DNA of 64,000 bases from Parasphingorhabdus sp. (GTDB taxonomy: Bacteria; Pseudomonadota; Alphaproteobacteria; Sphingomonadales; Sphingomonadaceae), in the NCBI GenBank assembly GCA_030373505.1, contig JAUCYS010000004.1, positions 1 to 64,000 of the forward strand, written 5' to 3'. Below, piece by piece: positions 283-41,776 of this stretch (its first letter is position 1; each line of letters begins with the position of its first letter). The position numbers were made by a program, and so were the translations under genes. The notes beneath the pieces were generated by a model. It did not search any database. It was given only the letters and a program-made list of their open reading frames with translations, and was not told the DNA's origin.

Positions 283-795
283 ATGAGTGAAGGAGAAATC
301 AGAATCTATGTGGCCTGTTTGGCCTCATACAATAACGGAATACTGCATGGTGCTTGGATAGACGCCAACCAAGACCCCTACGACATTTGGGGCGAGGTGA
401 GCGCGATGCTGGCATTATCGCAGATCGAGAATGCCGAAGAGTGGGCTATCCATGATTATGAAGGTTTGGAAGGCGTATCGATATCCGAATATGAGGGCTT
501 TGAAAGCGTTTCAAACAAAGCCGCGTTCATCGAACAGCACGGCGCATTAGGCGGCAAGTTGATTGAATATTATGGCGATCTTGAAGATGCCCAGAAAGCT
601 ATCGATGAGCAATATGCAGGAGAATATGAAAGCCTGTCTGATTTTGCACAGGAGCTAACCGAGCAAGCCACAGTCATTCCTGATAATCTGGTTTATTATA
701 TTGATTACGAGCGCATGGCGCGTGATCTGGAAATCAATGATGTTCTCGCAATAGAAACGCGGCACGATCAGGTGCATGTGTTTTGGGCACATTGA
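283..795 (+). CDS. ardA: ArdA family antirestriction protein
   Basis: The 170-residue product matches ArdA in length and character. It is strongly acidic along its whole length, begins with the typical IRIYVACLASYNNGILHG segment, and has Asp/Glu clusters around residues 55-70 and 95-125. ArdA proteins mimic B-form DNA and inhibit type I restriction enzymes in the cytoplasm, which protects incoming conjugative DNA. The gene sits at the left end of a block with traG, traD, traC and traA, the usual setting for ardA. The start is supported by a purine-rich stretch just upstream. The next ORF can begin one base after the ArdA stop, which suggests a two-gene transcript. The family assignment is from recognition of the sequence pattern. 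Confidence 0.93.
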   Translation: MSEGEIRIYVACLASYNNGILHGAWIDANQDPYDIWGEVSAMLALSQIENAEEWAIHDYEGLEGVSISEYEGFESVSNKAAFIEQHGALGGKLIEYYGDLEDAQKAIDEQYAGEYESLSDFAQELTEQATVIPDNLVYYIDYERMARDLEINDVLAIETRHDQVHVFWAH

Positions 796-1748: not shown

Positions 1749-3272
1749 CTATTTACTCTCATCAAACATCCCCGCGAATTCCTTATCAGCATAATATCGT
1801 AATTTCTTCACGACCAGCGGGTTTTCGCCAACCCGCATCAGCAGCAGCGTATCAGGCGCAAGCTGCATGATTTCGTTCGCATCCATGAGATTGCGGGCGG
1901 CAAGATGTTGTGTTTGGCTTAATGATCGTTCTGGGTCTTTGACCATCACGTCCTTTTGGCTCTGCCCGCTGGTTTCATAGGTGATGGTTTCCCGCCCCAT
2001 CGTTTTGGACAGCATATCGGCGGTGTCATAATCATTGACCCCGAACGCTTGCAGCACACCGGCATTGGACATGAACGTGCCAGCATTCTTGCCATAGAGG
2101 CTGCGCAGTTGATGGATGTCCTGCAAGATCGGCCATAGTTGCAGGCCGTAACCGGCCATCAGCCCCATTGCGCGCTCAACAGGTTGCAACCGGCCAAGCG
2201 CGGCAAATTCATCGAGCAGGAAGAGCACGGGACGCGGCAGCTTTGCCAACGAGCGCGCCAATTCGGCGATTGCCTGCGCCACCAGCAGCCGCAGCCAGCG
2301 CGAATAGGTGTCGAGCCGGTCAGGCGGCAGGATCAAGAATATCGTTGCTACGCTTTCCTTAAGATCAGCAAAGGCAAAATCGGACCCGTCCACGACCTGC
2401 GCGATGCGCGGACTGTCAAGAAAATGCGTGTGCCGCTGCGCCGCTGACAACACGCCTGCCGCTTCGCGGTGCGATTTGCTCACATGGCGGTTGGCGGCAC
2501 GGGCGATCAACCCGTTCGCAGCAGTGCTCGCCTGCATCACTGTCAACAATGCGGTGAAATCATCGGGCGCAAGCGTGAGATAATCCCGAACGCTGGTCAG
2601 CGTTCGGTGTGCAAGTCCATCATGGCATACGACATAAAGGATGATGCCCGAGATGAGCGCTTTTGCTTCCTCGTTCCAATGCGCCTCGGCTGTCTGTTCG
2701 TCGAACACCAACGCGTCCGCCAGCGTCATCGCATCCTCGGCAATATCGAGACTGTCTCTATCTAGGAGATCGAGCGGATTATATCTTGCGGTCTGCTGAC
2801 CAGAGATACCGAACGGATCAAGGCAATGGACCGGCCCGAACGTCTTACGCTGGCGCATGGTCACTTGGGCATTCTCGCCCTTGGGATCAATACAGATGAC
2901 CGAGCGATTGGCGGTGAGCAGATTGGGAATGATCGTGCCAACCCCTTTGCCAGAGCGTGTCGGCGCGATGGTCAAAAGATGTGCGGGGCCATCATAGCGC
3001 AGCATCCGGCCCGACGTGTCACGACCAATCAGAAGATCGCCCTTGTTTTTTGCCAGCGCGTTGACATCACTGCGCGATCCAAACTTTGCCGACCCCAGCG
3101 TGTCATCGGGGCGGGCATATCTGACCTTGAGATAGATAACGCCAATCCACAGCGCGATCCCGCCAATCAGAATCAGCCAGAATGCGGTTTGCGTTTTTGG
3201 TAGCCACCACGCGATAAGCAGCACTCCAGCGAACAGCAGCAACGCGCATCCGTGGAGACGACTACTCACCAA
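1749..3272 (-). CDS. traG: type IV coupling protein TraG/VirD4
   Basis: The 507-residue product is a VirD4/TraG coupling ATPase, which links the relaxosome to the mating channel at the inner membrane. Two hydrophobic segments lie near the N terminus (about residues 8-24 and 30-48). The Walker A motif APTRSGKGVGT follows at about residue 104, and LFLLDEFAALGR near residue 350 gives Walker B and its following conserved region. The protein is about 130 residues shorter than Ti-plasmid TraG. The start is a TTG at 3272 or GTG at 3269, right behind the traD stop, so translation is probably coupled. It is the last gene of a traC-traD-traG unit read away from traA. Confidence 0.9.
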   Translation of the reverse strand: MVSSRLHGCALLLFAGVLLIAWWLPKTQTAFWLILIGGIALWIGVIYLKVRYARPDDTLGSAKFGSRSDVNALAKNKGDLLIGRDTSGRMLRYDGPAHLLTIAPTRSGKGVGTIIPNLLTANRSVICIDPKGENAQVTMRQRKTFGPVHCLDPFGISGQQTARYNPLDLLDRDSLDIAEDAMTLADALVFDEQTAEAHWNEEAKALISGIILYVVCHDGLAHRTLTSVRDYLTLAPDDFTALLTVMQASTAANGLIARAANRHVSKSHREAAGVLSAAQRHTHFLDSPRIAQVVDGSDFAFADLKESVATIFLILPPDRLDTYSRWLRLLVAQAIAELARSLAKLPRPVLFLLDEFAALGRLQPVERAMGLMAGYGLQLWPILQDIHQLRSLYGKNAGTFMSNAGVLQAFGVNDYDTADMLSKTMGRETITYETSGQSQKDVMVKDPERSLSQTQHLAARNLMDANEIMQLAPDTLLLMRVGENPLVVKKLRYYADKEFAGMFDESK

Positions 3273-3599
3273 TCAATCCTCACCGCCTGGTGTGTTAGCA
3301 AACGCCTTGTCTTGCGCCGCTTCACTTTCGGAATCGAACGCGCGCTTGCCGCGCCGCTTCCACAGCATCAGCTTATTCGCGCCATCTTCGTTTCCGGCCC
3401 TCGCAGCAAGTTCGAGCATCGCACCGTAAAGTGTAGCGCGATCATCATCGGTCAATTCGACAAGACCTGATTTTTGGACGAGTCCGCCCAGTTCGATCAG
3501 ATGCCGTGTTCTCTCTCTTCGCTGCACCACCCACTCCCGCTTGTCATATCTGCGCTGACCTGCCTCAGCCCGCCGCCTCGCCGCGAGGTTTCTCACCAT
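3273..3599 (-). CDS. traD: conjugal transfer protein TraD (Ti type)
   Basis: The product is about 108 residues from the ATG at 3599 (MVRNLAARRRAEAGQRRYDK), which I prefer over longer starts because this is where similarity to Ti-type TraD begins. The protein is highly basic at its N terminus with a conserved block of REWVVQRRERTRHLIELGGL character and a Leu/Ala-rich middle. These small proteins accompany TraC in DNA processing at oriT; their precise role is poorly defined. The gene overlaps the 3' end of traC by 35 bp and its stop touches the traG start, so traC-traD-traG behaves as one coupled transcript. Confidence 0.85.
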   Translation of the reverse strand: MVRNLAARRRAEAGQRRYDKREWVVQRRERTRHLIELGGLVQKSGLVELTDDDRATLYGAMLELAARAGNEDGANKLMLWKRRGKRAFDSESEAAQDKAFANTPGGED

Positions 3600-3873
3600 C
3601 GCCTTTTTGGTTGCTACCAGCTTTCGGACGACCCTTGCGCCCACGCTTTCCGAGAAACATCGCACCATCGGCGCGCCAGCTCTCCTTTACGGATTCTTGT
3701 TTGGCTTCCATCACACCCTGCCGGAGCATCCCGGCGATAACCTCAAGGTCAAGCGCATCCGCACCCGTGGCAACCACCAGTGCGCCAAGCTGCTCGACCT
3801 TGCGCGCTTTGAGTTCCCGCGCCTTTTCGGCGAGAGCTTTTAGTTCAGCATCATAATCCCGGACTCTACGCAT
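3565..3873 (-). CDS. traC: conjugal transfer protein TraC (Ti type)
   Basis: The 102-residue product begins MRRVRDYDAELKALAEKARE and contains the helical, Lys/Arg-rich pattern and the central GADALDLEVIAGML segment seen in TraC-like proteins of Ti-type DNA-processing systems. TraC is an accessory relaxosome protein thought to help TraA at oriT. The C terminus is basic and Gly-rich (GKRGRKGRPKAG), compatible with DNA binding. It is the first gene of the minus-strand unit and is divergent from traA, with the candidate oriT in the 176-bp space between them. Confidence 0.85.
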   Translation of the reverse strand: MRRVRDYDAELKALAEKARELKARKVEQLGALVVATGADALDLEVIAGMLRQGVMEAKQESVKESWRADGAMFLGKRGRKGRPKAGSNQKGDGEKPRGEAAG

Positions 3874-3984: not shown

Positions 3985-4025
3985 AATTTTGAGTGCGCGC
4001 TTATACGTTGTTGCCAACGTCGCTT
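3985..4025. other. oriT: candidate MOBQ-type oriT nic region
   Basis: Between traC and traA lies a perfect 6-bp inverted repeat (ACGTTG-TTGC-CAACGT, 4005-4020). Next to it, read on the minus strand, is ATAAGCGCGCACTC. This arrangement matches RSF1010/Ti-type oriT, where an inverted repeat is followed by a nic sequence like TAAxTGCGCCCT. The position beside traA is also the usual one. The assignment is by pattern; the exact nick site is not proven. Confidence 0.65.
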
Positions 4026-4049
4026 AAAAGTGAGAGATTACTTGGCGTA

Positions 4050-6599
4050 ATGGCGATCTACCATTTCTCTGCAAAAGTCGTGAGCCGCGCCAATGGATCA
4101 AGCGTGGTTGCATCGGCTGCCTACCGCGCCGCTGAACGCTTGTGCGACGACCGGCTTGGGCGCGATCATGACTTCACCAGCAAGACCGGCGTAGTCCATT
4201 CTGAAATCATGCTGCCAGACGACGCGCCGGAGCGACTCGGCGACCGCGAGACGCTGTGGAATGCGGTCGAAGCGGGCGAGGTTCGCAAGGACGCGCAGCT
4301 TGCCCGCGATGTAGAATTTGCGATTCCAAGAGAGATGAACGAAGCTGATGGTGTCCAGCTTGCGCGCGATTTTGTCGCACGGGAATTTGTCGCGCGCGGC
4401 ATGATCGCCGACCTTAATGTGCATTGGGACCAAGGCGAAGATGGCAGTCCCAAACCCCATGCCCATGTCATGCTTTCGATGCGCGAAGTCGGTCCAGACG
4501 GCTTTGGTCAAAAAGAGCGCGACTGGAACAGCACCGACCTCTTGAAAGAATGGCGCGGCGCATGGGCCGACCATGTAAATGTCCGCATGGCCGAGCTTGG
4601 TCTTGAGGCCCGCGTCGATCACCGCACGCTTGAGGCGCAGGGCATTCCGCTCGAACCGCAGCACAAGATCGGTGCAGCGGGATCACGGCGCGCGGGTGCC
4701 GGCGAGGACGCCGAACGCGCCGACGATCATATTCGGATCGCGCGGGAGAACGGCGAGAAGATTATAGCCGATCCGGCTATTGCCTTGAATGCCATTACCC
4801 ATTCCCAAGCCACGTTCACGGAGCGCGATCTTGCCCAGTTCGCGTTCCGGCACAGCGACGGCAAGGACCAGTTCGATGCGGTCATGGCATCGGTGCGCGG
4901 TTCCCCCGAACTTGTGGCATTGGGCAAGGACGGCAAGGATCAGGACCGGTTCACCAGCCGCGATATGATTGCGGTGGAGGAGCGGCTTGGCCTGTCCGCA
5001 TCGATGCTGGCTACCAGCGAGCGCCACGGCGTTGCGGGTCAGAACCGGAATGCCGCGCTTGATGGTGCAGCCGAGCGGGGGATGATTTTGTCTGGCGAGC
5101 AACTTGATGCTTTCGATCATGTCACCGGCAGCAAAGGCCTTGCGTCGGTCGTGGGTTATGCAGGGAGCGGCAAATCGGCCATGCTTGGCGTTGCGCGTGA
5201 TGCGTGGCAGCGTGAAGGCTATAATGTTCGCGGTGCATCGTTATCGGGCATTGCTGCGGAAAATCTTGAAGCCGGTTCCGGCATCAGTTCACGGACGATT
5301 GCGAGCCTTGAATATCAATGGAAGCATGGCCGCGAGCAATTGAGCGAAAATGACGTGCTGGTCATCGACGAGGCAGGTCTGACCGGAACCCGGCAGATGG
5401 ACCAGGTATTGTCCGCTGCCCGCGATGCAGGCGCGAAGGTTGTGCTGGTCGGCGATCCCGAACAGTTGCAGGCGATTGAGGCGGGTGCGGCGTTTCGCTC
5501 GCTTGCCGAAGCGCATGGCGCGGTTGAAATTACAGAAATCCGGCGTCAGCGCGACGACTGGCAGCGCGGTGCAACCCGCGCGCTTGCGACCGGACGGACG
5601 GGCGAGGCGATCCGTGCTTATGGCGAGAATGGCATGGTTCATGGGGCCGAGACGCGCGAGGATGCGCGCGCCGCATTGATTGAGGGCTGGAATGATGCCC
5701 GCACAAGCGATCCCGACAAGAGCCGGATCATATTGACCCATACCAATGCAGAAGTGCGTAACCTCAATATCGCTGCCCGCGACAAGCTGCGCGACCAAGG
5801 AGAGATTGGCGCAGATGTTCGCGTCGAAACCGAACGCGGCATGCGCGACTTTGCCAGCGGCGACCGGATGATGTTCCTGCGCAATGAACGCGGCATGGGA
5901 GTCAAAAACGGGACGCTCGGCACGGTTGAAGCCGTATCGCCCGGACATATGGCTGTCCGCACCGATGACGGGCGCAGCGTATTGTTTGATTTGAAAGATT
6001 ATGCCCATATCGATCATGGCTATGCGGCGACCTTCCACAAGTCTCAGGGCGTGACGGTCGATCAGGCGCATATCTTGGCAACGCCGGGGATGGACCGACA
6101 TTCCGCCTATGTTGGCATGACGCGCCACCGTGAGAATGCGCAGCTCCATTATGGACGCGATGATTTTGCTGACCAGAGCAAGCTCGTGCGTACCCTGTCG
6201 CGTGAACGGGCAAAGGATATGGCGAGCGATTATCCGTTGCGAGACGCCGCCGCGCGCGGCTTTGCCGAGCGGCGCGAGTTCCGGTTTGGGGAAGCGGCCC
6301 GTGATATGGCCGCCAAAGCGCGTAATTTGATCGCTGATCCCGACCGGATTGAAGCGTTGCGGGGCCGTCTCGACAAGGCGCTGGGGCGCGAGCGGTCAGC
6401 AGCCCCCAGCGTCCCGCTAGTTACTGACAAGGATCAAGGGCAAGATCACGATACCAATTCTGCTGCGTCCCGTCTTCATGCGCGCATGGCCGAACTGGGC
6501 AAGCAGGTGCGTGAGAGTGATGAGCGGGATCGTGATCGGACGAAAGCCAAAGAACAGGACCGCGATAATGATCGTGACCGTGGAGGGCCAGGACGATGA
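4050..6599 (+). CDS. traA: Ti-type conjugative relaxase-helicase TraA
   Basis: The 849-residue protein nicks oriT and unwinds the strand for transfer. The N terminus (MAIYHFSAKVVSRANGSS) is the MobA/MobL relaxase domain, with a probable catalytic Tyr25 in AAYR and a metal-binding His motif PKPHAHVML (H137, H139). The second half is a RecD/AAA_30-type helicase with Walker A GYAGSGKS near residue 370, DEAGLTG, VGDPEQLQAIEAG and a late HGYAATFHKSQG motif. I chose the ATG at 4050 because the longer frame from 3993 would read through the candidate oriT. The tail is very charged (Asp/Arg repeats). Its last four bases overlap the next gene. Confidence 0.95.
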   Translation: MAIYHFSAKVVSRANGSSVVASAAYRAAERLCDDRLGRDHDFTSKTGVVHSEIMLPDDAPERLGDRETLWNAVEAGEVRKDAQLARDVEFAIPREMNEADGVQLARDFVAREFVARGMIADLNVHWDQGEDGSPKPHAHVMLSMREVGPDGFGQKERDWNSTDLLKEWRGAWADHVNVRMAELGLEARVDHRTLEAQGIPLEPQHKIGAAGSRRAGAGEDAERADDHIRIARENGEKIIADPAIALNAITHSQATFTERDLAQFAFRHSDGKDQFDAVMASVRGSPELVALGKDGKDQDRFTSRDMIAVEERLGLSASMLATSERHGVAGQNRNAALDGAAERGMILSGEQLDAFDHVTGSKGLASVVGYAGSGKSAMLGVARDAWQREGYNVRGASLSGIAAENLEAGSGISSRTIASLEYQWKHGREQLSENDVLVIDEAGLTGTRQMDQVLSAARDAGAKVVLVGDPEQLQAIEAGAAFRSLAEAHGAVEITEIRRQRDDWQRGATRALATGRTGEAIRAYGENGMVHGAETREDARAALIEGWNDARTSDPDKSRIILTHTNAEVRNLNIAARDKLRDQGEIGADVRVETERGMRDFASGDRMMFLRNERGMGVKNGTLGTVEAVSPGHMAVRTDDGRSVLFDLKDYAHIDHGYAATFHKSQGVTVDQAHILATPGMDRHSAYVGMTRHRENAQLHYGRDDFADQSKLVRTLSRERAKDMASDYPLRDAAARGFAERREFRFGEAARDMAAKARNLIADPDRIEALRGRLDKALGRERSAAPSVPLVTDKDQGQDHDTNSAASRLHARMAELGKQVRESDERDRDRTKAKEQDRDNDRDRGGPGR

Positions 6600-7081
6600 G
6601 CGACGAACAGGACGACCCCCTTTTGGGGTTGCTAACGGATATTGCCGAAGGTGTGGCGAGGCTCGCCGCTCGCGTTGATGCGATAGAGGCAAGCAATGCG
6701 TCGCATCAAAAACAGGTCAACGAGGCGCTTGCCACCATCGCCGAAATTGCCACGCGCACATATTATGTCAGCAAGCCGGCCACCGCCTTGCCGGATGATA
6801 TTATCAACACAAGCGTGATGGACGCTATCATTGAGCGGTGGCCGAAGGATGCGGTTATCACCATGTCGAGCATAGACCGAAAAGTCTTGAACGAACTCGA
6901 CCGCCAACCCGGCGAGATAATCGATAAGTTGATCGAGCGCGCACAAAATAACCCCGATCAGAGCAACGCCAATCGCGTTCGGATGGCTGCGTTTCTTACC
7001 CTTCTCAATCAGGAGAGGGAGCGAAGACTCAAAGCTAAGGAGCAAGGCATTGAACGGAGTGGGCTCGGGCGTGATCGGTAA
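6596..7081 (+). CDS. hypothetical protein coupled to traA
   Basis: The 161-residue product overlaps traA through ATGA, so the two are translationally coupled. Its first 45 residues form an amphipathic helix (LLGLLTDIAEGVARLAARVDAI) likely to be a coiled coil, followed by a more globular part with a second helical, charged C terminus. It has no signal peptide or membrane segment. I do not recognise a family. Position alone suggests an accessory to the relaxase or to regulation of transfer; oligomerisation through the N-terminal helix is plausible. Confidence 0.7.
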   Translation: MSDEQDDPLLGLLTDIAEGVARLAARVDAIEASNASHQKQVNEALATIAEIATRTYYVSKPATALPDDIINTSVMDAIIERWPKDAVITMSSIDRKVLNELDRQPGEIIDKLIERAQNNPDQSNANRVRMAAFLTLLNQERERRLKAKEQGIERSGLGRDR

Positions 7082-7205
7082 ATGACGATGTTGCAAGATA
7101 ACCAGCATATTGGAGTTATCAGCAATAGCGTTTATCGAACCGATTGTGCTGGATTTGATAGTTTGCTGCTGTTGAAATCCCCGCAAACAATGTAAGCAAA
7201 AGCAC

Positions 7206-9152
7206 ATGACAACTCTGAATCTTCATGCGAAACAGGATTTCCTAGAACGCGAAGCCAAAACTAGCGACCCTATCAGAGCTATCTCGGAACTGGTTTGGAA
7301 TTCGTTGGATGCTGAGGCGACTAGTGTAAGCGTCGTTCTCGGAAAAAACGAATTAGGTGGACTTTCATCAATCACCGTCAGCGATAACGGCCATGGCATA
7401 AAATTCGAGCAAGCAAATCACGACTTTGGAAATTTGGGGGATTCATGGAAACGCAATGCACATCGAACTAAGGAGCTAAAGCGAGCAATCCATGGCAAGG
7501 AAGGGCGCGGGCGGCTTCGCTTTTATTCTCTGGCTCAGCGTTGTAAATGGCAAACGACATTTGAATCTGAGAATGGTTTAAAATCATTCGATATCGAAAT
7601 TTTTGCTAACGCACTGGAACGGTGCGAAGTTTCTAATGTTAAGTCACCCAGCGACGAACATACTGGAACGATTGTTCGGCTCCAAAACTTAAAAGATACT
7701 TTTGATTACCTCGGCAGTGTCGATGCCTTCCGAGAATTCAGTTCAATCTTTGCACCTTACATTTTGCAATACACTGACGCTGAAATTTGGTATAATGGAT
7801 ATAAAATTGACCCAAATATTATTGTCGAGCGATGGCACGAATTACCGCAAGAAGATATTCAGCTTCCGAACAGAACAGTCTCAGATTTAAAACTCAAGGT
7901 AATCGAATGGAAGAATTCCATCGACGCTAGGCAAATTCACTTCGGTGGAGAAGATGGCATCGTATTGGGTTCGCAAGCGGCACATGTCACGGCACCCGGA
8001 TTTGAATTCTCCGCATACGCATATAGCTCTTATTTCCAAGAGCTTGCAGATAAAAATCTGCTGGAACTTGATGATCTTAATGATCCAGAATTTCTAATTA
8101 TTATCAATCACATCCGAAACGAATTGGGTGACTATTTTCGACAGCGTCAAAGTGAAAAATCTCTAGGAGTAATACAGGAATTGAAGGATGCTGGTGCCTA
8201 TCCATATGAAGGCGACCCGAAGGATGAAATTGAACTAAGAGAGCGGCAGGTTTTTGACATAGCTACTTACGCTGTTTCGTCATATTCGAAAGATTTCACA
8301 AAGGCTGAACCTTCATTGCAAAAGATGACGCTGACGCTTTTGAAGGAAGCTATAAAGCATAATCCAGATGAATTATCGACCATTCTTCAAGCCGTCGTTA
8401 ATCTACCTAAAAAAAAGCAAACCGAGTTTTCCGCGCTTCTGAAAAAAACAGAACTTGGAAATATTATCAATGCATCGAGCCTAATATCAGAGCGTATTGT
8501 CGTTTTAGAAATTCTCAAAGGCATTGTTTTTAATCCCAAGTACAGAAACACTGTCAAGGAACGTGGAGAATTGGACGTTCTGATCAGGGACCACACTTGG
8601 CTTTTTGGGGAGCAGTTTCACATAACTTTGTCCGAAGTTGGACTTACCCGAGTTATGGACAGGGTCTCTCAAGAGGTGGCGTCAAAAAGAAAGCGGCGAA
8701 AAATCACGAAGACGGATGGAAAAACGGGTAGGGTGGATAACTTTCTTGGCCGCTTGGTACCTAATCCAGACCCAGCGAAACGGGAGTATTTATTGATTGA
8801 GCTGAAAAGACCGTCGTTGACGGTGGCTCGCAAAGAGTTGGATCAGGTGGAAGATTACATGAATGCCATTAAGAATGAAGATGAATTCGCCAGAACTGAT
8901 ACTACGTGGCATTTTTACTTAATCTCCGGCTCGCATGCCGATGAAATCGATAGTCGAGTAAATCAGAAAGATCGACCTCAAGGGCTGTTCTTGGAGGGCG
9001 ATAATTACAAAGTCTGGGTGAAAACATGGTCTGAAATTATTAGGGCAAATGAGGCCCGTCTCAAATTCGTTCAAGATCAACTAAAAATTGAGGTTTCTGA
9101 CAGTGAAATTGAAACTAGGATTCAAGAACTTCAGAAACTCGTGACGAAATAG
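7206..9152 (+). CDS. GHKL ATPase fused to Shedu-like (DUF4263) nuclease domain
   Basis: The 648-residue protein begins with a GHKL/Bergerat ATPase fold: N-box ELVWNSLDAEAT (E28, N32, D35), SDNGHGI (D60-G64), and a glycine-rich lid GKEGRGRLRF (97-106). The middle (about 200-450) is helical and unassigned. The C-terminal domain (about 455-620) has the Shedu/DUF4263 pattern: LIRDHTWLFGE, then RVDNFLGR (D511), LLIELKRP (E532, K534) and Q547 with Y551, the PD-(D/E)XK nuclease core. Shedu nucleases are anti-phage; here the ATPase probably senses or gates the nuclease. The gene is visibly AT-rich compared with the flanking chromosome, consistent with transfer. The role in defence is inference. Confidence 0.8.
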   Translation: MTTLNLHAKQDFLEREAKTSDPIRAISELVWNSLDAEATSVSVVLGKNELGGLSSITVSDNGHGIKFEQANHDFGNLGDSWKRNAHRTKELKRAIHGKEGRGRLRFYSLAQRCKWQTTFESENGLKSFDIEIFANALERCEVSNVKSPSDEHTGTIVRLQNLKDTFDYLGSVDAFREFSSIFAPYILQYTDAEIWYNGYKIDPNIIVERWHELPQEDIQLPNRTVSDLKLKVIEWKNSIDARQIHFGGEDGIVLGSQAAHVTAPGFEFSAYAYSSYFQELADKNLLELDDLNDPEFLIIINHIRNELGDYFRQRQSEKSLGVIQELKDAGAYPYEGDPKDEIELRERQVFDIATYAVSSYSKDFTKAEPSLQKMTLTLLKEAIKHNPDELSTILQAVVNLPKKKQTEFSALLKKTELGNIINASSLISERIVVLEILKGIVFNPKYRNTVKERGELDVLIRDHTWLFGEQFHITLSEVGLTRVMDRVSQEVASKRKRRKITKTDGKTGRVDNFLGRLVPNPDPAKREYLLIELKRPSLTVARKELDQVEDYMNAIKNEDEFARTDTTWHFYLISGSHADEIDSRVNQKDRPQGLFLEGDNYKVWVKTWSEIIRANEARLKFVQDQLKIEVSDSEIETRIQELQKLVTK

Positions 9153-9230
9153 GCGTAAGCGTCCAGGGAGGGCCAATTACGCCTATTGTCGGCGCTAAGC
9201 GCAGATCACGGCTGCCGCATGAAGTCCGAA

Positions 9231-10160
9231 CTATTCCGCTAACTGAACTTCATTTTCCAGTGCGGTGATCCGTTCCAAGCAGATTGTGTGAACCACGCGG
9301 CCAAGTTCCTCAATTTGCTGACCCAGCCATGTAAGTTCTTCTTCGCTGATGCGGTAGTGCTTGGAGTAGCGCGCCTTCACATAAGCTTCCTTGAGCTTTT
9401 CGAACCGCGCGCGATCCGAACGAAGTTCGCGGGGCCAGCAGTCAACCAAGCGCATATCTAGGCGCTCTGCCTGGGTTCTCAGGAAGCCGAGATTATGCAC
9501 ATGTGGTGTGTAGAAGGTGCAGACTAACAACACGCAATGGTATAACCGCTCTGCAGCTTGGTGCATGTCAAATGCAGCATCTTTGAAATGTCCCTGCGAC
9601 ACGTAGTATTTTGCGCCGCCAAACCGTTTCATCGCAGCTGGACACCAATCATCAAAATACTCTTTGGCCATGGCCAGCGCTTGCTCGGGCGTCTTGGGCT
9701 TGGGAACGTGAAGTTGACGCCCATCGGCTTCGTAGAGCGCAATCCCGTCCTTTGCGACGTCCATGAAGAAGTAACGGCCATGCGCCAGGCCGTCATTCAC
9801 TTCGCCAAGCGTATGGACGATGAAATTAACCGGCGTGCGCAGTGTCTTGTCGATGGCCAGCTCGCGCATCAATCTGTTGTCCAGCTTCAACCAGTAATCG
9901 ACCTTGTCGGTCAGGCGCTTGTCATTGACAATGATGAGGATATCGAAGTCCGAGCGATAACCTTTGGCGGTGTGCGGCTCGTCGACCCAGCCGCCCCGTG
10001 CGTAGCTGCCATAGAGGATGATCTTCTCGATCTTCCCTTTCTTCTTCCACTCGTGCTGCGCGAGCGCCAGCGCGTCTTCGAACTCTTCGAAGATGATTGC
10101 CTTCACGCGTTCAATCTCGCGTTGTTTGGCGGCAGGAAGGTGATCAAGGTCGGTGCGCAT
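9231..10160 (-). CDS. nucleotidyltransferase-HEPN fusion protein
   Basis: The 309-residue product joins a minimal nucleotidyltransferase (about 40-145) to a HEPN-like domain (about 165-295). The NTase part shows ILYGSYARGG (G51-S52) and SDFDILIIV (D71, D73), the metal-binding Asp pair. The HEPN part has the helical FDMHQAAERLYHCVLL block and ends near ARYSKHYR, which gives an Arg and His at HEPN-like spacing. In MNT-HEPN toxin-antitoxin pairs the NTase AMPylates and silences the HEPN RNase; here both are one chain. I chose the ATG at 10160 (MRTDLDHLP) because relatives start there; ATG at 10193 is possible. It may be defence or stress related. Confidence 0.8.
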   Translation of the reverse strand: MRTDLDHLPAAKQREIERVKAIIFEEFEDALALAQHEWKKKGKIEKIILYGSYARGGWVDEPHTAKGYRSDFDILIIVNDKRLTDKVDYWLKLDNRLMRELAIDKTLRTPVNFIVHTLGEVNDGLAHGRYFFMDVAKDGIALYEADGRQLHVPKPKTPEQALAMAKEYFDDWCPAAMKRFGGAKYYVSQGHFKDAAFDMHQAAERLYHCVLLVCTFYTPHVHNLGFLRTQAERLDMRLVDCWPRELRSDRARFEKLKEAYVKARYSKHYRISEEELTWLGQQIEELGRVVHTICLERITALENEVQLAE

Positions 10161-10302
10161 ATCTATGCCTATCGTGGAGTCTCGCGCCTGCATTTGCAAG
10201 TGGCATTGCTCGACGTGGCAAGTTTAGAGTCGAGTAAGGCTATCTGGTCGCCAGAGGCAGAAAAAGCCGGAACTTCTGAGTACGTCTTTACAGATTCCAG
10301 AC

Positions 10303-11905: not shown

Positions 11906-12147
11906 GATGAGCTGCCATTGGTTTAAAGCAAGGGCCCTCTGTCGGCGCTACAAGTAACGAAATGATAGACAAAACAGGCTCACGGTGCCAAACGCGAATG
12001 CTCACTCAAACTTAAAGAAACCGCAAGGAACCCTAATTTATTCTACACAGTTCCTGCACAGCTAAATTATCTCGATTATTATTAAACAAAATCAACATAC
12101 TACAAGACTACCGTCCTTAGTTCAGGATGACGAAAGCTCTTTTCACA

Positions 12148-12920
12148 ATGACACTACCCCCTCCCCCCGCCACGACGGCTGGCTCCCCGAAATCCGCGTC
12201 AAGTTCCTCGAGGCCCTGTCGCGCACCGGCAATGTCGGGGCCGCCGCTTATTATGTGCAGCGCTCGCGCCAGTCGGCCTATGATCTGCGCCGCCGCGACC
12301 CGGGTTTTGCCCGCGGCTGGCAGGCAGCATTGGTGCTGGCGCGCGATGTCGCGGAGGATGCGCTGCAGGAGCGGGCGATCGACGGCATCGAGGAGCCGGT
12401 CTATTATCATGGCGAGGTGGTGGGCATGCGCCGCCGCTATGACAGCCGCCTGCTGCTCGCCCATCTCGCCCGGCTCGACAAGATCGCCGAGCAGGTTCCG
12501 GCCCGCCGCGCCGCCGCCCGCTTCGAGGAGCTGATGGAGGCGATCCGCACCGGCGCGGACAGCGCGCCGCTGATCGCCGTGCCGACCGACGACGAACTGG
12601 CCGCTGCCGCCGCAAAGGCCGAGGGGCGGCAGCCACCGGCGGAGGAGCAAGGCGAGGAATTTTACGCGGTCCGCTGGCCGGATACCGACGGGCCGCCGGA
12701 CTATTACCGGCTGACCCCGGAGGAAGCCGCCGAGATGGAAGGCGAAGTCCCCGGCCTAACCGCCACCCCCACCGGCACCCGCAGCGACGCGATCATCACC
12801 AGCCTGCATTTCGATGAACTGGCCCGCGCCGAGGCCGCGGCAAAGGCGACAGCGAACGCGGCAGAGCATGATGCTTGGCCGGACTGGGGCACCGAACCGG
12901 ACCCCCGGGAACTAAATTGA
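12148..12920 (+). pseudogene. terminase-small-subunit/HTH-like conserved protein, frameshifted at start
   Basis: The conserved body reads RHDGWLPEIRVKFLEAL, then SRTGNVGAAAYYVQRSRQSA and LRRRDPGFARGWQAAL, a helix-turn-helix pattern like small terminase or HTH-domain proteins common in sphingomonads, then the ERAIDGIEEPVYYHGEVVG block. It stays open to 12920 (about 250 codons). The natural ATG at 12148 (MTLPPPP) is out of frame by one base with RHDGW; the break lies in a C-rich homopolymer (12157-12168). Either one C was lost or it is a sequencing error. The C terminus is Ala/Glu-rich. Function is unknown; DNA binding is likely. It is the first chromosomal gene right of the island. Confidence 0.6.
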
Positions 12921-12963
12921 TAACCCTGTAAAGTTTGTCAAGTTCATGCCCCTCCCCGAAAGC

Positions 12964-13070
12964 CCCGTCATTGCGAGGAGCAAAGCGACGAAGCAATCCA
13001 GAGCGGCACCCACCGCCGGTGACCAGACGCCCTGGATGGCGTCGCTACGCTCGCCATGACGGATAAGGGG
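12964..13070. repeat. palindromic intergenic repeat, copy A
   Basis: About 107 bp starting CCGTCATTGCGAGGAGC. Its left arm continues through AAGCGACGAAGCAATCCAG, and an imperfect complement (CTGGATGGCGTCGCT...CGCCATGACGG) closes the right end. The arms would fold into a long hairpin around a variable spacer. Two more copies follow within 350 bp. This is a REP/MITE-like element of a kind common in alphaproteobacteria. Confidence 0.85.
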
Positions 13071-13099
13071 CAAGAAAGGATGGAGCACAGAACTCTAGC

Positions 13100-13200
13100 C
13101 CCGTCATTGCGAGGAGCGCAGCGACGCGGCAATCCAGTGCGGCACTCACCGCCAGTGACCAGACGCCCTGGATGGCGTCGCTACGCTAACCATGACGGAC
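13100..13200. repeat. palindromic intergenic repeat, copy B
   Basis: The second copy is about 101 bp and keeps both arms, with point changes (GCGCAGCGACGCGGCAATCC in the left arm and CTAACC in place of CTCGCC on the right). The spacer differs from copy A by a few bases. Confidence 0.85.
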
Positions 13201-13292
13201 AGGTACATGCCAGTAAAAACCACTCGTGCTCCGCGCCTGACGCGGAGCCCTGCACCCCGGACACCATGGCGAATGGACGCGCAATCTTCGTC

Positions 13293-13401
13293 CCCGTCAT
13301 TGCGAGGAGCAAAGCGACGAAGCAATCCAGAGCGGCAACCGCCGAGCGCAGCGACCAGACGCCCTGGATGGCGTCGCTACGCTCGCCATGACGGATAAGG
13401 G
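13293..13401. repeat. palindromic intergenic repeat, copy C
   Basis: The third copy is about 109 bp; the arms are nearly identical to copy A and the spacer (GCGGCAACCGCCGAGCGCAG) is different. The sequence between copies B and C (13,201-13,292) is unique, without a gene I can support. Confidence 0.85.
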
Positions 13402-13409
13402 AAAACCGT

Positions 13410-13432
13410 TAGTGGTGAGCCTGTCGAACCAC
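13410..13432. repeat. short REP-like palindrome
   Basis: The stretch GTGGTGAGCCTGTCGAACCAC has complementary ends (GTGGT/ACCAC) and belongs to a short repeat type widely scattered between sphingomonad genes. It lies directly beside repeat copy C in front of the convergent end of rimO. Confidence 0.55.
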
Positions 13433-13516
13433 GCCTCTCGGCCGAGAGCTGCCCTTCGGAGTCGCAGACGGCGCGAAGCGCCACAAGCTCAGTGCGAACG
13501 GCAACGCGCGGCGGTT

Positions 13517-33624: not shown

Positions 33625-35231
33625 TTATGCGGCCTGGTCGTTGCGCGCGTTTTGCGCAGGGTCGTCCGACACAGAGTCGGTCGTGCCAGCGCGGCTGTCG
33701 GCCAGGGCCAGCTGCCCGCTATCGTTCGGCCGCCCATAGAGAAAGCCTTGCCCGATGTCGCATCCGGAATCGATAACGCTTCTCGCATTATCATAGGTTT
33801 CAACACCCTCGGCGGTCACTTCCAGTCCCAGATTGTGAGCCAGGGCAGTAACCGCCCGGACAATCGATTGTGACGCCGAATTTGTTTCAATACCACGCAC
33901 GAATGACCGGTCGATTTTCAGCTTGTCAAACGGCAACTCGGACAGATGGCGGAGCGAAGAATATCCGGTACCAAAATCATCAAGAGATATGCTGATACCC
34001 TGATTTTTAAGGGACAGGATAAGGTTACGGGCAGCGTCAAGATCGCTTACCAGGCGCTTTCCGTAATCTCTATCTCAAGCCGGCCCGGTGCCACGCCGGC
34101 GTCGAGCAAAGTTTGCAATATGCGCTCTACCAGCCAGTCGTCACCAAATTGAACGGGAGACAGGTTTACCGCCAGATGCAGCTCGTCCGGCCAGTTCTTT
34201 GCCTCAAGTGCGGCAGCCTTCAAGACCGCAAAAAAGAGATCGGAGATCAGACCAGATTCCTCGGCAATGGCGATAAAATCATCCGGCATCCGCATTGTTC
34301 CGTCTGCCATATGCCAGCGGGCCAAGGCCTCGAAACCAAGTATTCTGCCGTCCCGGAGATCCACCAGCGGCTGGTAGAAGGGCTTGATTTTCCCGTCCGC
34401 AATTGCCTTGCACAAATCGCTTTCAATCTGGGCACGCTGGATCGCCGCGAGTTCCATACCGGCCTCGAAAAATGAAACGGCGTTGCCGCCTGTTCCCTTG
34501 CCGCGATACATGGCCGCATCGGCCTGCGCGAGCAGCGCATCTACCGAAGTGCCCGGTATGTTGGTCGTTACAACACCGATGCTGGCGCTGACCGAGACCG
34601 ATCGGTCACCCAGATCAAACGGTTGTTCGAAGATTAAAGACAGCTTTTCCACCCTGCTTATCAGCTGATCGCGAGATGCGATTCCGCTGAGCATCGCGCA
34701 GAATTCATCGCCGCCGATCCGGCTGACCAACCCCTCATTGCCGACAGCAGTTTTCAACCGCTCACCAACCGCAAGCAGCAACTGGTCGCCAGCCAGATGG
34801 CCGTACAGATCGTTGACCGGTTTGAACCGGTTGAGGTCAATGGCAAGCAAGGTGACCGGCGCGCGCGCTGCATTCTCCAGCGCGGATTCTATCTCCATAT
34901 TTGCCTTGCGGCGGTTGGCCAGCCCGGTCAGCGGATCGTGCAGGGCCATTTCATTGGCCTTTTTCTCGGCCAACAGCCGGAGCTTCAATTCCTGCTTCGC
35001 TTCAATAAGTCGGCGCACTGCGAAAACGCCCAGCGCAATCGGGAGCAGCAGCAATCCGGTCAGAAATTCATCGAACTGCCAGTGTTCATGCTGCTCTGTA
35101 AATATAACAATTTGCTCAAATCCATTGAGAGCGTGGGATCCGCCCAATGTGATCAGATAGAATATTACGATAATCGCAAAGTCTCTATGTGGCGCATATT
35201 TCTTTTCGGCGGTAAATTTTCTGAGTTCCAA
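33625..35231 (-). pseudogene. GGDEF-EAL protein, broken by a one-base deletion
   Basis: This gene would make a c-di-GMP synthase/phosphodiesterase of about 535 residues. The intact 394-residue first part has two membrane helices (about 18-33 and 57-74), a GGDEF domain (G173-F177, IGGDEF) and the start of an EAL domain (EALARW, E301-L303). It stops at ESAW (TAA, 34047-34049). In the next frame the EAL domain continues with SDLDAARNLILSLKNQGISI, DDFGTGYSSLR and KLKIDRSFVRG to 33625. One missing base at about 34052 (CCAGGCGC where CCAGGGCGC is expected) explains it. GGDEF may survive; EAL is lost unless the base is a sequencing error. Confidence 0.88.
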
Positions 35232-35386
35232 AGACTGCTCCCAATGGTGCGATAAATATCCCCCACCGTTCAGCCACCAGAATAGCAGATATATATTAAG
35301 CCTTTACTAAGCACTGAACGCAGCCATCAGCACCCCGCAATGGATCGCGGCCAGAGGAAAATCGCTTTCTTCATTGTGGAGTTGGT

Positions 35387-35457
35387 TGGGGTGGCAGGAT
35401 TCGAACCTGCGCATGGCGGCATCAAAAGCCGCTGCCTTACCACTTGGCGACACCCCA
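35387..35457 (-). tRNA. tRNA-Gln (anticodon TTG), copy 1
   Basis: On the minus strand TGGGGTGTCGCC starts a 71-nt cloverleaf without encoded CCA: acceptor TGGGGTG/CACCCCA, D arm, anticodon loop CTTTTGATG with anticodon TTG, T arm with GGTTCGAATCC. It reads CAA codons (and CAG by wobble). It sits alone between the GGDEF-EAL gene and ilvE, in the 312-bp gap between them. Confidence 0.95.
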
Positions 35458-35543
35458 ATATTTGCGGGCCTCATTCTGGCGGGCCACGCTGGTGAACGGG
35501 CCTATTATCCAGTTTGCCCGCAGGGGGCAAGAGGCAGTTATAT

Positions 35544-36647
35544 CTAAGCTTCGAACAGTCTTTTGACCCAGCCGTGATTATCCGGTGCAATGCCGCGCTG
35601 TATATCAACCAGCCGCCGCTTCAATTTTTCGGTCAACTGGCCGGGACCACCGCCGCCGATGGTGAATTCACCCTTGCGGGACCGTACGGTACCGACTGCA
35701 GTCACAACCGCTGCCGTCCCGCAAGCAAAGGTTTCAACCAGCTTGCCACTGGCGGCATCGGCCTCCCATCGGTCGATGGAATAGGGTTCCTCGACCACGG
35801 TCAGTCCCTCTTCCCGAGCGAGGGTCATGATCGAATCGCGAGTGATGCCGGGCAGGATGGTTCCACCGAGAGGCGGGGTGATAAGCCTGCCGTCATCCAT
35901 TGCGAAAAACAGATTCATACCGCCCAGTTCTTCCACCCATTTATGTTCGGCGGCATCCAGGAAAACGACCTGATCGCATTCCTTTTCGATGGCTTCCGCC
36001 TGTGCAATGAGGCTGCCGGCATAATTGCCGCCGCATTTGGCCGCACCGGTACCGCCCGGCGCTGCCCGGCTGTAATCCTCAGACACCCAGATCGTGATCG
36101 CCGAGGCGCCGCTCTTGAAATAGCCGCCCGCGGGGGAAGCAATCACCAGATACAGATATTCCTTGGCCGGGCGAACGCCCAGAAACACTTCGCTCGCGAA
36201 CATGAAGGGACGGAGATAGAGGGAGCCGCCCTCGACCGAAGGGAACCAGTCGCGGTCGATATCGACCAGCGCCTCGACAGAATCGAGAAAGGCCTGTTGC
36301 GGCAATTCCGGCATCGCCATACGCCGTGCCGACGCCTGGAACCGTTTTGCATTTGCTTCGGGGCGAAAGAGGGCCGTGCTGCCATCGGCGAGACGGTAAG
36401 CCTTCATCCCCTCGAATATTTCCTGGGCATAATGGAGCACCGAGGAAGCGGGATCCATCAGGATCGGCTCCCGTTTGGTGATCCTGGCATCGTGCCAGCC
36501 TTGCGCTTCGCTATAGCGGATCATGGCCATATGGTCGGTGAACAGGGTCCCGAAGCCCGGATTTTCCAACAGCCGAGACCGCTCGCTTGCCATCACCGGC
36601 GTCGCGCTCGGCTCCAGCTTGAATTCCAGGTTTTGATTGTCTGCCAT
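35544..36647 (-). CDS. ilvE: branched-chain amino acid aminotransferase, copy 1
   Basis: The 367-residue PLP enzyme transaminates the 2-oxo acids of leucine, isoleucine and valine, the last step of their synthesis. It is of the longer class IV type: QEIFEGMKAYR near 75, R146 region LYLRPFMFASEVFLG, the Schiff-base lysine K204 in AKCGGNYAGS, and the late FACGTAAVVTAVG phosphate-binding loop. Its length fits class II-like bacterial BCATs. It is divergent from the MarR-type regulator, sharing a 100-bp promoter region with a palindrome near the regulator start. The neighbour pair ilvE/MarR(PetP)-type is common in alphaproteobacteria. Confidence 0.96.
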   Translation of the reverse strand: MADNQNLEFKLEPSATPVMASERSRLLENPGFGTLFTDHMAMIRYSEAQGWHDARITKREPILMDPASSVLHYAQEIFEGMKAYRLADGSTALFRPEANAKRFQASARRMAMPELPQQAFLDSVEALVDIDRDWFPSVEGGSLYLRPFMFASEVFLGVRPAKEYLYLVIASPAGGYFKSGASAITIWVSEDYSRAAPGGTGAAKCGGNYAGSLIAQAEAIEKECDQVVFLDAAEHKWVEELGGMNLFFAMDDGRLITPPLGGTILPGITRDSIMTLAREEGLTVVEEPYSIDRWEADAASGKLVETFACGTAAVVTAVGTVRSRKGEFTIGGGGPGQLTEKLKRRLVDIQRGIAPDNHGWVKRLFEA

Positions 36648-36735
36648 ATATGCCGCTTTCGCTGTAATTCATGCCCACCAATGGAAGAATTGGAAGCATA
36701 TCCAATTGTCTTGCAATCCCCTAATCAGCCTGTCA

Positions 36736-36762
36736 AGATACGTCAACATGACTGACGTATCT
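36736..36762. promoter_or_regulatory. perfect palindrome over the MarR start codon, copy 1
   Basis: AGATACGTCA-ACATGAC-TGACGTATCT is a perfect 10-bp inverted repeat with a 7-bp centre, and the regulator's ATG (36748) lies in the centre. It is a good operator for a dimeric MarR protein, suggesting autoregulation, or alternatively an mRNA hairpin hiding the start codon. It also lies about 90 bp upstream of ilvE. Confidence 0.65.
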
Positions 36763-37260
36763 CGCACCGCAATTTCCCCCGGAGCCTCGCCGCTTTTTCT
36801 GCGTGAAGACGAAGTGCGCCGTGGCATCGAACTGCTGTATTTCGGCTATACCAGACTGACCAATGCGATCGACCGGGAACTGGCAACGCAGGGCCTGGGC
36901 CGGGCGCATCACCGCGCTCTATATTTCATAGCCCGCCAGCCTGGTCTGACCGTCGGCGAATTGCTTAAATTGCTGGCGATCACCAAACAGTCGCTCGGCC
37001 GCGTGCTGAAGGAATTGCAGGACCGGCAGTTCATCCTGACGTCCCCCGGCGTTCTCGACCGGCGGCAGAAATTGCTGCGCCTGACAGAAAAGGGTGCTGA
37101 TCTGGAGGCCGAACTGTTTCGGCAATTGCGGCAAAGACTTTCGTCCGCCTATGTTTCTGCAGGACAGGAATCCGTGAGCGGCTTCTGGCATGTTCTGGAA
37201 GGCCTGATTCCGGAAAGCGATCGCAAGATGGTGTTCGACCTGCGCGGAGACAATCTCTGA
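36748..37260 (+). CDS. MarR-family transcriptional regulator (PetP-like), copy 1
   Basis: The 170-residue regulator starts at the ATG at 36748 (MTDVSRTAIS); longer frames overlap ilvE's promoter. The winged helix occupies about 45-115: GRAHHRALYFIARQPGLTVG, LLKLLAITKQSLGRVLKEL and SPGVLDRRQKLLRLTEKG. MarR proteins act as dimers on palindromes and often respond to small ligands or redox. In alphaproteobacteria PetP-type members often sit beside ilvE and an OmpR-type PetR; no PetR follows here. No clear ribosome site is seen, and a palindrome covers the start. Confidence 0.9.
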   Translation: MTDVSRTAISPGASPLFLREDEVRRGIELLYFGYTRLTNAIDRELATQGLGRAHHRALYFIARQPGLTVGELLKLLAITKQSLGRVLKELQDRQFILTSPGVLDRRQKLLRLTEKGADLEAELFRQLRQRLSSAYVSAGQESVSGFWHVLEGLIPESDRKMVFDLRGDNL

Positions 37261-37342
37261 GGCGAGAGCCGACGAGGCGTTTTCTGCGGTCACCAAATAA
37301 TATCAAAATACATGAGCATCGAGACAGGCGGCGGGCACAGGA

Positions 37343-37849
37343 TCAGGCTTCGCCGGCGGTATCGACCATCGCATGGGCAATCGCATCCTGGGGGCTCTTG
37401 TCGCTCCACAGGACAAACTGGAAGACGGGATAAAATCTCTCCCATTCCTCGATCGCCAAATCGACAATCGTCTGCGCCTGATCCAGACCCAGCAATCCGC
37501 TCCCGCCGAGCAGGGTGGCATGGCGGAACAACAATATATTATTGTTCGACCACAGATCAAAATGACCTAGCCAGAGCTGCTCGTTGATCAGCCCCAATGT
37601 TTCGTAAATGGCCGTTTTCTTCTCATCCGGAACGCGGATCTCCGGCAACAGCAGAATCTGGAGGACATGATCCTCGTCCCGCCAGATCGCGCGCATCTGA
37701 TAGCTCGTCCAGTTGCCCTTTATCTCGACCGAAAGCTCGTCGTCGCCGACATGATTGACCGACCAGCCGCGCGCCTCGAAAAAGGCCGCCAGCATATCCA
37801 CGGGCGGCGCTTCGTCCTGATCAAGCTCTTCCCATTGGTCGTCAAGCAT
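37343..37849 (-). CDS. YbjN domain protein, copy 1
   Basis: The 168-residue acidic protein begins MLDDQWEELDQDEAPPVDML and shows the YbjN pattern: a first alpha/beta part (FFEARGWSVNHVGDDELSVEIKG), a beta-strand-rich middle, and a C-terminal helix pair (AIEEWERFYPVFQFVLW). YbjN proteins resemble type III secretion chaperones in fold and are thought to be regulatory or chaperone-like; no specific activity is known. It is soluble. It converges with the MarR gene and is followed downstream on its strand by nothing close. Confidence 0.85.
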   Translation of the reverse strand: MLDDQWEELDQDEAPPVDMLAAFFEARGWSVNHVGDDELSVEIKGNWTSYQMRAIWRDEDHVLQILLLPEIRVPDEKKTAIYETLGLINEQLWLGHFDLWSNNNILLFRHATLLGGSGLLGLDQAQTIVDLAIEEWERFYPVFQFVLWSDKSPQDAIAHAMVDTAGEA

Positions 37850-37980
37850 TACGGTTTCCAGATCCTTTGTAACTAGACGCTTAGTGGCGCAAGCACCGGA
37901 TCAGGGCAAGGCAAGGCGCTGCCAGCCGTCACATTGATTGTGGGAACGCTGTGGATAATGAACGCCCGACCGGGCGGGAT

Positions 37981-38358
37981 TCAGTCGCCGGTTTTGGGGG
38001 GAGCGGACTTGCGCGCGGCCGGTTTCGGAGCAGCAGCTTTTTGCCCGCTCGCCTTGCCCGCAGTCGCGCGTTTCGTTGCAGGCTTGCTTGCCGGAGCGGA
38101 CGCGGCCTTTTCCAGGGCATCGACCCGTTTCTTCAGCGCGTCTGCTTCGGCCCGCGCCTTGGCAGCCATTTCCTTTACCGCGTCGAATTCGTCGCGCGAG
38201 ACAAAGTCCATCCCGCCAAACCATTCCTTGGCCCGTTCGCGGGCACTGGATTCGGCTTCGCGTCCGACGCCAGCCACGGTCCCTGCAAGACCGTTCAACA
38301 CTTTCGAAAGATCGTCAAAAAAACGGTTCTGGCTCTGCATTTCATTAAACTCCGTCAC
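37981..38358 (-). CDS. UbiK/BMFP family accessory factor, copy 1
   Basis: The 125-residue protein has an N-terminal amphipathic part (RFFDDLSKVLNGLAGTVAG), a short coiled coil (about 52-86: SRDEFDAVKEMAAKARAEAD and beyond) and a Lys/Ala/Pro-rich disordered tail (88-125). The pattern fits BMFP/UbiK (PF04380) proteins, which bind membranes as trimers; UbiK assists aerobic ubiquinone biosynthesis in E. coli. The assignment to ubiquinone is by family only. Start at M1 or M7. It is followed by tspO on the minus strand's upstream side, 27 bp away. Confidence 0.82.
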   Translation of the reverse strand: MTEFNEMQSQNRFFDDLSKVLNGLAGTVAGVGREAESSARERAKEWFGGMDFVSRDEFDAVKEMAAKARAEADALKKRVDALEKAASAPASKPATKRATAGKASGQKAAAPKPAARKSAPPKTGD

Positions 38359-38385
38359 TGGCCCGTCGGACCTGAAAAATATAAT

Positions 38386-38934: not shown

Positions 38935-39187
38935 AGGGCGGCATCCTTGATCGAGAAATTACGCGAATCGTCAGGGCCGCTTGTGCCCGAAACCCTTGTA
39001 CTTTTAACAATTTTTGGGCGCTTGGCCAGCCTTATGGCGCTGATTATATCCGAGGCGCGTCAGAATAAGATTACTTCGTGCCTTGGCATTTTTTTCATCA
39101 TCGCCATCTTGGAGAAACGGGGCGCGCCGGGGGTATCGGTACAAACCTTTGATTGTGACAAATAGGACGGGCTGCTAGGCGCTTTTT

Positions 39188-41258: not shown

Positions 41259-41279
41259 GTTCTATTTCTGTGTAGCAAC

Positions 41280-41732: not shown

Positions 41733-41776
41733 TCGTGCGTCTCCTTAACTCTATAATCTTCAGCTGCCGGTCGGAA

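Follow-up and report, generated by a model that had tools for sequence, protein, structure and literature searches.

paraMORC3 proteins were defined as a GHKL ATPase followed by an S5 domain and a carboxy-terminal RE-fold nuclease with an E-D-ExK motif (Iyer, Abhiman and Aravind 2008, PMC2292703). The accessible portions of that survey describe them as sporadic, prevalent in proteobacteria and Bacteroidetes, and including a standalone subset. VcSduA of Vibrio cholerae joins a GHKL ATPase to a DUF4263 nuclease and is classified as Shedu type I-D (Nature Microbiology 2025, PMC12137116). The accessible portions of that report state that VcSduA protects against Drexlerviridae and vibriophage X29, that the E27A and K557A substitutions each abolish protection, and that protection was similar at all MOIs tested, which its authors read as direct restriction. 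In the AlphaFold model of VcSduA the dimer is entwined and its middle domain resembles a clamp; VcSduA homologues occur in ~1.2% of genomes, and such proteins were earlier annotated as paraMORC3 (PMC12137116). Within Shedu proper, EcSduA is described in the accessible text as a tetramer with a DNA-end clamp; it attaches to the ends of DNA, and its cuts fall at a constant distance (PMC12904381).

The gene analysed here lies in a 64,000-nucleotide stretch of Parasphingorhabdus sp. DNA (contig JAUCYS010000004.1, hereafter the window; Table 1). It encodes a well-conserved, mobile-element-borne member of the paraMORC3 / GHKL-Shedu group, and the architecture is already known. A preliminary description of the window had stated that no mechanism was characterised for this architecture; the statement is superseded by the 2008 definition of paraMORC3 (PMC2292703) and the 2025 ATPase and nuclease mutants of VcSduA (PMC12137116), as given in the accessible portions of both papers. 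No study of the alphaproteobacterial branch was found among openly licensed PMC papers. The protein is probably an anti-phage restriction enzyme encoded by one gene and belonging to the paraMORC3 / GHKL-Shedu (type I-D) kind, and the gene is cargo of a conjugative-type element.

The window protein has the same architecture and distribution as paraMORC3, and no difference was found in this comparison, which was made with the published description only. It shares with VcSduA a GHKL domain with a catalytic glutamate (residue 27 there, 28 here), a middle domain, and a PD-(D/E)xK catalytic lysine (557 there, 534 here). VcSduA lies on a genomic island, and the match is one of architecture. The enzymatic N-terminal domain that goes with type I-D, where it regulates a nuclease active against phages, is present in the window protein. 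The host and the carrier differ, and the E27-K557 spacing of 530 compares with 506 here and 477-528 in the 48-protein set defined below. Shedu proper (E. coli SduA, 8ps4 and 8ps5; B. cereus Shedu, 8ti8 and 8ti9) is alike in nuclease fold and motif but differs in its N-terminal parts: residues 1-430 of the window protein are unmatched to nine Shedu proteins, and the Shedu family PF14082 misses the window protein. MORC3, MORC2, and MutL share the ATPase plus transducer cassette (residues 7-318), whereas the nuclease part has no similarity to them. BbrUII/HgiDII (NCBIfam NF050001) likewise contains a GHKL ATPase in a restriction enzyme.

Table 1. Coordinates of the gene, its domains and its carrier element in the window.
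Feature	Position	Strand	Basis or remark
ArdA antirestriction gene	283..795	+	Pfam ArdA 4e-42; same element by position
TraG/VirD4-type coupling protein	1749..3272	-	Pfam T4SS-DNA_transf 5.2e-79
TraD-family protein	3273..3668	-	Pfam
Second TraD-family protein	3565..3873	-	Pfam
TraA-type relaxase-helicase	3993..6599	+	MobA_MobL + AAA_30
161-aa protein between traA and nuclease gene	6596..7081	+	84% identical, same place in the P. flavimaris copy (L001)
GHKL ATPase - PD-(D/E)XK nuclease, paraMORC3 / Shedu type I-D-like	7206..9152	+	648 aa, stop codon included
GHKL (Bergerat) ATPase domain, ~residues 1-160	7206..7685	+	Pfam HATPase_c_3, MORC3 match, invariant residues
ATPase residues	E28 7287-7289; N32 7299-7301; D60 7383-7385; glycine lid 97-102 7494-7511	+	
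Putative S5-like transducer region, ~residues 161-290	7686..8075	+	Limits approximate; MORC3 structural match reaching residue 318
Helical middle region, ~residues 291-450	8076..8555	+	Proposed clamp / DNA-contact part
Shedu-type PD-(D/E)XK nuclease domain (predicted), ~residues 451-630	8556..9095	+	Invariant residues, profile-profile, fold match
Nuclease residues	D511 8736-8738; E532 8799-8801; K534 8805-8807; Q547 8844-8846	+	
Nucleotidyltransferase-HEPN fusion	9231..10199	-	Pfam; variable slot downstream, outside defence protein
Element right end	11933..12134	.	90% identity with L001 10995-11195; occurs once in the window's genome

Domain organization and the ATPase half

The gene runs from ATG to TAG with zero internal stops, so ATPase and nuclease belong to a single protein, as had been proposed. 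Three parts were distinguished: a GHKL ATPase with its transducer, a helical middle, and a carboxy-terminal PD-(D/E)XK nuclease. The AlphaFold2 model of the full-length protein had a pLDDT of 78.1 and a pTM of 0.53, and because of this pTM the relative placement of the domains was left unused. In this model residues ~291-450 are mainly helices, with ten-residue mean pLDDT values of 52-89.

Pfam HATPase_c_3 matched residues 24-136 (E 1.1e-16) and HATPase_c matched with E 7.7e-6. Residues 7-318 of the model superposed on MORC3 (5ix2_B; VIA Z 18.9, rmsd 3.9, 287 aligned) and on TRAP1 (7exp_B; Z 19.0), and residues 7-325 on MORC2 (9cdh_B; Z 17.9). The second half of the MORC ATPase cassette is an S5 fold. 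The N-terminal GHKL domain with intact ATP-binding motifs and, through the superposition of residues 7-318 on the MORC3 cassette, the S5-type domain after it are thus both found as in paraMORC3. The reading of the ATPase as the probable switch is supported; beyond the identity of the domain, we infer the links.

Sequence similarity to BbrUII/HgiDII and MutL is confined to this half. NF050001 matched residues 26-166 only (3.5e-17, 62.2 of the 550 bits needed), and a BbrUII/HgiDII-type restriction enzyme was rejected because the match covers only the ATPase part. TIGR00585 (MutL) matched residues 22-71 only, with 37.1 bits against a cut-off of 180, and a MutL-type repair enzyme was rejected because the similarity stops at the ATPase.

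Related loci (n = 39) were collected from a scan of GTDB genome contigs. The closest is a Parasphingorhabdus flavimaris copy (L001), 96% identical; alphaproteobacterial relatives have 53-68% identity, and those from Bacteroidota, Armatimonadetes, Gracilibacteria, and Chloroflexi 25-34% in the best segment. Alignment A1 (n = 32) holds the window protein and 31 of the 39 loci, excluding L014, L015, L016, L017, L036, L037, L038, and L039, which are broken, cut at a contig end, partial or chimeric. HATPase_c_3 is present in all 32 members. A PDB search with the A1 sequence profile returned MutL/PMS, topoisomerase VI B, and MORC2; at E <= 10 it gave GHKL chains only, with no nuclease-domain match and no Shedu chain.

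The ATPase and nuclease residues named in the preliminary description are kept. E28, N32, D60, G62, G64, G97, G100, G102, D511, E532, K534, and Q547 are invariant in A1 (32/32), and D35 is kept in 31 of the 32 sequences. Also invariant in the nuclease part are E452, R453, W465, F467, G468, E469, F471, H472, P536, and Y551. A 48-protein set was made from A1 plus 16 proteins from other genomes, plasmids, and distant relatives, some rows being near-duplicates, and without L054, L056, L057, and L101, which are broken or partial. All 48 keep E28, N32, D60, G62, G64, the three lid glycines, W465, F467, D511, E532, K534, and Q547. The exceptions are D35, replaced by glutamate in L028 (kept in 47/48), E452, replaced by threonine in L052, and G468, which differs in L093 and L091.

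The nuclease half and its link to Shedu

A nuclease fold had been expected for residues 455-620. Residues 428-632 folded alone with a pLDDT of 85.9 and a pTM of 0.83, and the top VIA-align 2 match of this lone nuclease model was B. cereus Shedu (8ti9_B; Z 9.2, rmsd 4.3, 145 aligned), with E. coli SduA at Z 8.4 (8ps4_A) and 8.2 (8ps5_A). The B. cereus chain 8ti8_B (Z 7.5) was level with the nicking enzyme Nt.BspD6I (Z 7.8), and FokI had Z 6.7. Four of the first six rows are Shedu chains, with modest values of Z 9.2 to 7.5, and they ranked at the top only after VIA re-alignment. Foldseek alone found nothing at E <= 0.001; its best match was MspJI (9.5e-3).

Profile comparison was made with nine PF14082 proteins from Pseudomonadota genomes. 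hhalign aligned residues 430-648 to this profile (Prob 91.5, P 8.5e-7), with W-FG, D511, E532-x-K534, and Q547 opposite their Shedu counterparts; residues 1-180 and 180-430 gave Prob 0.1 each. Homology of the nuclease to Shedu is therefore indicated in both profile and fold, and the C-terminal RE-fold nuclease with E-D-ExK of paraMORC3 is present as invariant E452, D511, and E532-x-K534 together with the fold match.

Direct family searches miss the domain. Of the two HMM families suggested earlier for this protein, HATPase_c_3 matched, but PF14082 (SduA_C) had no match at E <= 10 across the window's genome. PF14082 was also absent from the best 25 of the 27 Pfam families listed for the 32 A1 members, and PADLOC SduA matched four of these members (best E 0.0052). 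The best Pfam nuclease match was HSDR_N_2 at residues 524-557 (E 0.015), below the cut-off. The earlier assignment as Shedu-like thus stands by fold and by profile-profile comparison but not by PF14082. Taken together, the comparisons support a predicted Shedu-type PD-(D/E)XK nuclease domain whose link to Shedu is visible only at these two levels.

Two further GHKL-nuclease proteins were compared. L052 matched PF14082 with E 1.8e-4 and 22.3 bits, below the cut-off of 27, and aligned with A1 over 528 columns (Prob 98.8). L062, from a family-wide genome search, aligned with A1 over 544 columns (Prob 99.0). The Shedu profile gave Prob 76.3 with L052 and 12.7 with L062, which makes L052 the better bridge.

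A basic loop (residues 493-507, window 8682-8726) lies directly before D511, mostly at low model confidence. It is present in the 14 alphaproteobacterial rows of alignment A2 and by eye looks less basic in the Bacteroidota rows. The loop is a possible DNA contact.

The carrier element, selection, and spread

The nuclease gene is cargo of a conjugative-type mobile element. The order traG, both TraD-family ORFs (of which we take the second, 3565..3873, to be TraC by position), traA, the 161-aa ORF, and the nuclease gene is the same in L001. The 161-aa ORF had no Pfam family over the cut-off. DNA similarity between the window and L001 ends at 9157, five bases past the stop codon, and resumes at 11933-12134. 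The L001 flank just past the element end resembles contig C19 of the window's genome (76-80%) and not the window locus, which places the same element at a different chromosomal site. Four genomes of the same genus (L122-L125) match the window rightwards from 12156-12167 and have nothing up to 12155, one of these stretches extending only ~1 kb leftwards. This junction and the L001 end place the end of the insertion between 12134 and 12156. The nuclease gene is absent from these four whole genomes, as is the relaxase save weak helicase-part matches in two. The contig starts at window base 1, and the element left end was not found in the window. The proposal of mobile-element cargo is thus supported by recurrence of the tra genes, the gene, and the right end at another chromosomal site in P. 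flavimaris and by four same-genus genomes that lack the gene and the insertion. None of the 16 loci that have 8 kb of upstream sequence (L002-L017) carries the tra block of the window, nor does any of six loci whose flanks are shorter.

The gene has 42.6% GC compared with 54.7-60.3% for traG, traA, and ORF 6596; ardA, at 46.8%, is AT-rich too. The earlier account of the context holds for AT-richness but not for position, as ardA lies 6.4 kb away and ORF 6596-7081 separates traA from the gene. The GC content in L001 is 41.5%, against 49.3 to 63.8% in 12 other alphaproteobacterial relatives, and AT-richness in both hosts fits a foreign origin. The gene is under strong purifying selection. Compared with L001 it has dN 0.020 and dS 0.527 (ratio 0.038), which argues against a chance ORF; the corresponding values are 0.068/0.648 = 0.105 for traA and 0.101/0.498 = 0.20 for ORF 6596.

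Besides the window's own genome, 297 genomes of its family were covered; five of them have relatives, three of which are broken or fragmentary. Thirty genomes of this family matched; the window's own and these five were judged true by length and match range, and the other 24, of which L062 was examined individually, match mostly over the ATPase stretch. In a sample of 397 other Pseudomonadota genomes, nine had a relative (E <= 1e-20). Relatives were also found on 49 of 72,556 plasmid records (15 of the 49 predicted conjugative) and, at 29% identity, in two Pasteurella phages among 50,697 phage records. A separate viral contig set had zero relatives. The gene of a Salmonella relative has 95-99% identical copies in 11 of 5,426 E. 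coli genomes.

The scan of neighbours in other hosts covered 71 ORFs, picked by hand for nearness from 219 candidates lying up to 4.5 kb away, with no background control; L001, L016, L031, and L036 were left out, and L002 is absent because an overlapping ORF displaced its gene. Among the families listed (the first 25 of 292 for PADLOC and the first 25 of 87 for Pfam) are R-M, Abi, Gabija/OLD-like, and TIR genes, and one locus has DRT2 plus LlaMI R-M. On Phaeobacter plasmid pGal_E78 the start of the relative (L088 5983-7971) has 4 bases in common with the end of a type ISP R-M gene, which suggests that the two form one operon. Genome G031 (L126) carries a classical Shedu gene (6232-7485) and a GHKL-Shedu relative (8175-10265) ~0.7 kb apart and convergent. 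One neighbour family is common to six loci (L006, L008, L009, L011, L013, and L016) and none to more than six of the 39; a conserved operon partner was rejected on this count.

Several irregular loci were seen. The Pasteurella phage relatives (L127, L128, 4001-5959) lie among tail genes, an odd spot for a defence gene, in the order tail assembly chaperone, tail protein, relative, then baseplate or tape-measure genes. In the window's family the gene is split in two frames in L056 (at residue 438/439) and L054 (~546/548), and these are either broken genes, assembly errors or two-subunit forms. L014 and L054 gave identical matches and may be the same genome. In Nitrobacter vulgaris (L017 6297-9065) family residues 327-648 stand in frame behind an N-terminal half with helicase-like motifs, seen by eye, as if made by recombination into a chimera.

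Other features of the window were recorded. No counterpart of the nucleotidyltransferase-HEPN fusion turned up at the P. flavimaris locus; in L004 and L011 a homologue lies 5.5 kb and 1.6 kb, respectively, from the nuclease relative. These are 2 of 23 loci, several of them short-flanked, and the co-occurrence is either chance or shared cargo. A direct tandem repeat of 12,005 bp (34718-46722 and 46712-58716, 99.99% identical) could reflect recent duplication or an error of assembly. Each copy holds a tRNA-Gln(ttg), and of ten ORFs scanned several are ordinary (aminotransferase, ABC transporter, ExbB, TonB). A GGDEF-EAL ORF lies at 34047-35231, and its shorter copy at 46593-47225 retains only part of GGDEF. 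Clustered ~100-bp imperfect repeats at 12961-13501, 86-94% identical in the window with many copies in the same genome and genus, are a dispersed intergenic repeat family.

Function and rival explanations

By analogy with VcSduA, which has the same architecture and is known to protect and to need both sites, the window protein may protect its host. ATP binding dimerises the heads of GHKL proteins (MutL, Hsp90, topoisomerases). The window protein would likewise be a dimer whose two GHKL heads close on each other when ATP binds. A clamp round invading DNA would then form from the S5-like region and the helical middle, the closed state would place or release the two carboxy-terminal PD-(D/E)XK domains to cut it, and ATP hydrolysis would reset the clamp. 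The role of the middle region as a clamp is suggested by MORC and by the published VcSduA dimer model. We infer the dimer clamp, the order of the steps, and the DNA feature sensed, which could be topology or, on the precedent of EcSduA, DNA ends. A more specific version is tentative: a MORC-like ATP-gated topological clamp whose closure on linear or abnormal DNA would license the Shedu nucleases, so that the element polices both phages and rivals.

The nuclease could instead serve competition between elements, mainly destroying incoming plasmids, rival conjugative elements, or replication intermediates to shield its carrier rather than to stop phages. Its place behind tra genes, the ArdA of the same element, and the relatives on plasmids, some of them predicted conjugative, and in two Pasteurella phages all fit this idea. 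We consider it unlikely, as VcSduA, which has the same architecture and has been assayed, acts against phages (PMC12137116, accessible portions) and, among the loci compared, the tra block is shared by the P. flavimaris copy only. Killing of the infected cell by an activated nuclease that degrades host DNA is very unlikely: the similar protection by VcSduA at all MOIs tested, as given in the same portions, was read as direct restriction (PMC12137116), although Pfam found no sequence-specificity domain, and the broken-looking relatives L014, L016, L039, L056, and L054 are what a costly gene would leave, with assembly errors as the alternative.

BbrUII/HgiDII restriction enzymes are paired with a methylase. 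A component of such a system, cutting unmethylated or specifically modified DNA, was the first proposal for MORC/paraMORC genes, and it draws on the NF050001 match and on the pGal_E78 overlap with a type ISP R-M gene. It is quite unlikely here, since zero methylases were found among the ten window neighbours scanned, no neighbour family recurs widely among the 39 loci, the BbrUII match goes no further than the ATPase, and standalone paraMORC3 genes are noted in the accessible part of Iyer 2008 (PMC2292703). A role as a MutL-like enzyme, serving the host or the element in DNA repair or mismatch correction, is barely credible: the GHKL part resembles MutL/PMS by sequence, but the similarity ends with the ATPase, and the sporadic occurrence in the window's family is unlike a housekeeping repair gene.

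The preferred reading remains an anti-phage restriction enzyme. With this protein the GHKL-Shedu (paraMORC3) group gains a member on a conjugative-type element in a sphingomonad. PF14082 and PADLOC SduA miss the window protein and, with few exceptions, the relatives aligned with it, and tools that depend on these two models may undercount this branch. If true, the topological-clamp reading would unite DNA entrapment of the MORC type with the end-cutting of Shedu, and such sensing would be new for Shedu in the literature covered. The protein is compact and conserved, and it offers a means of studying the control of a Shedu nuclease by a MORC/MutL-type ATPase.
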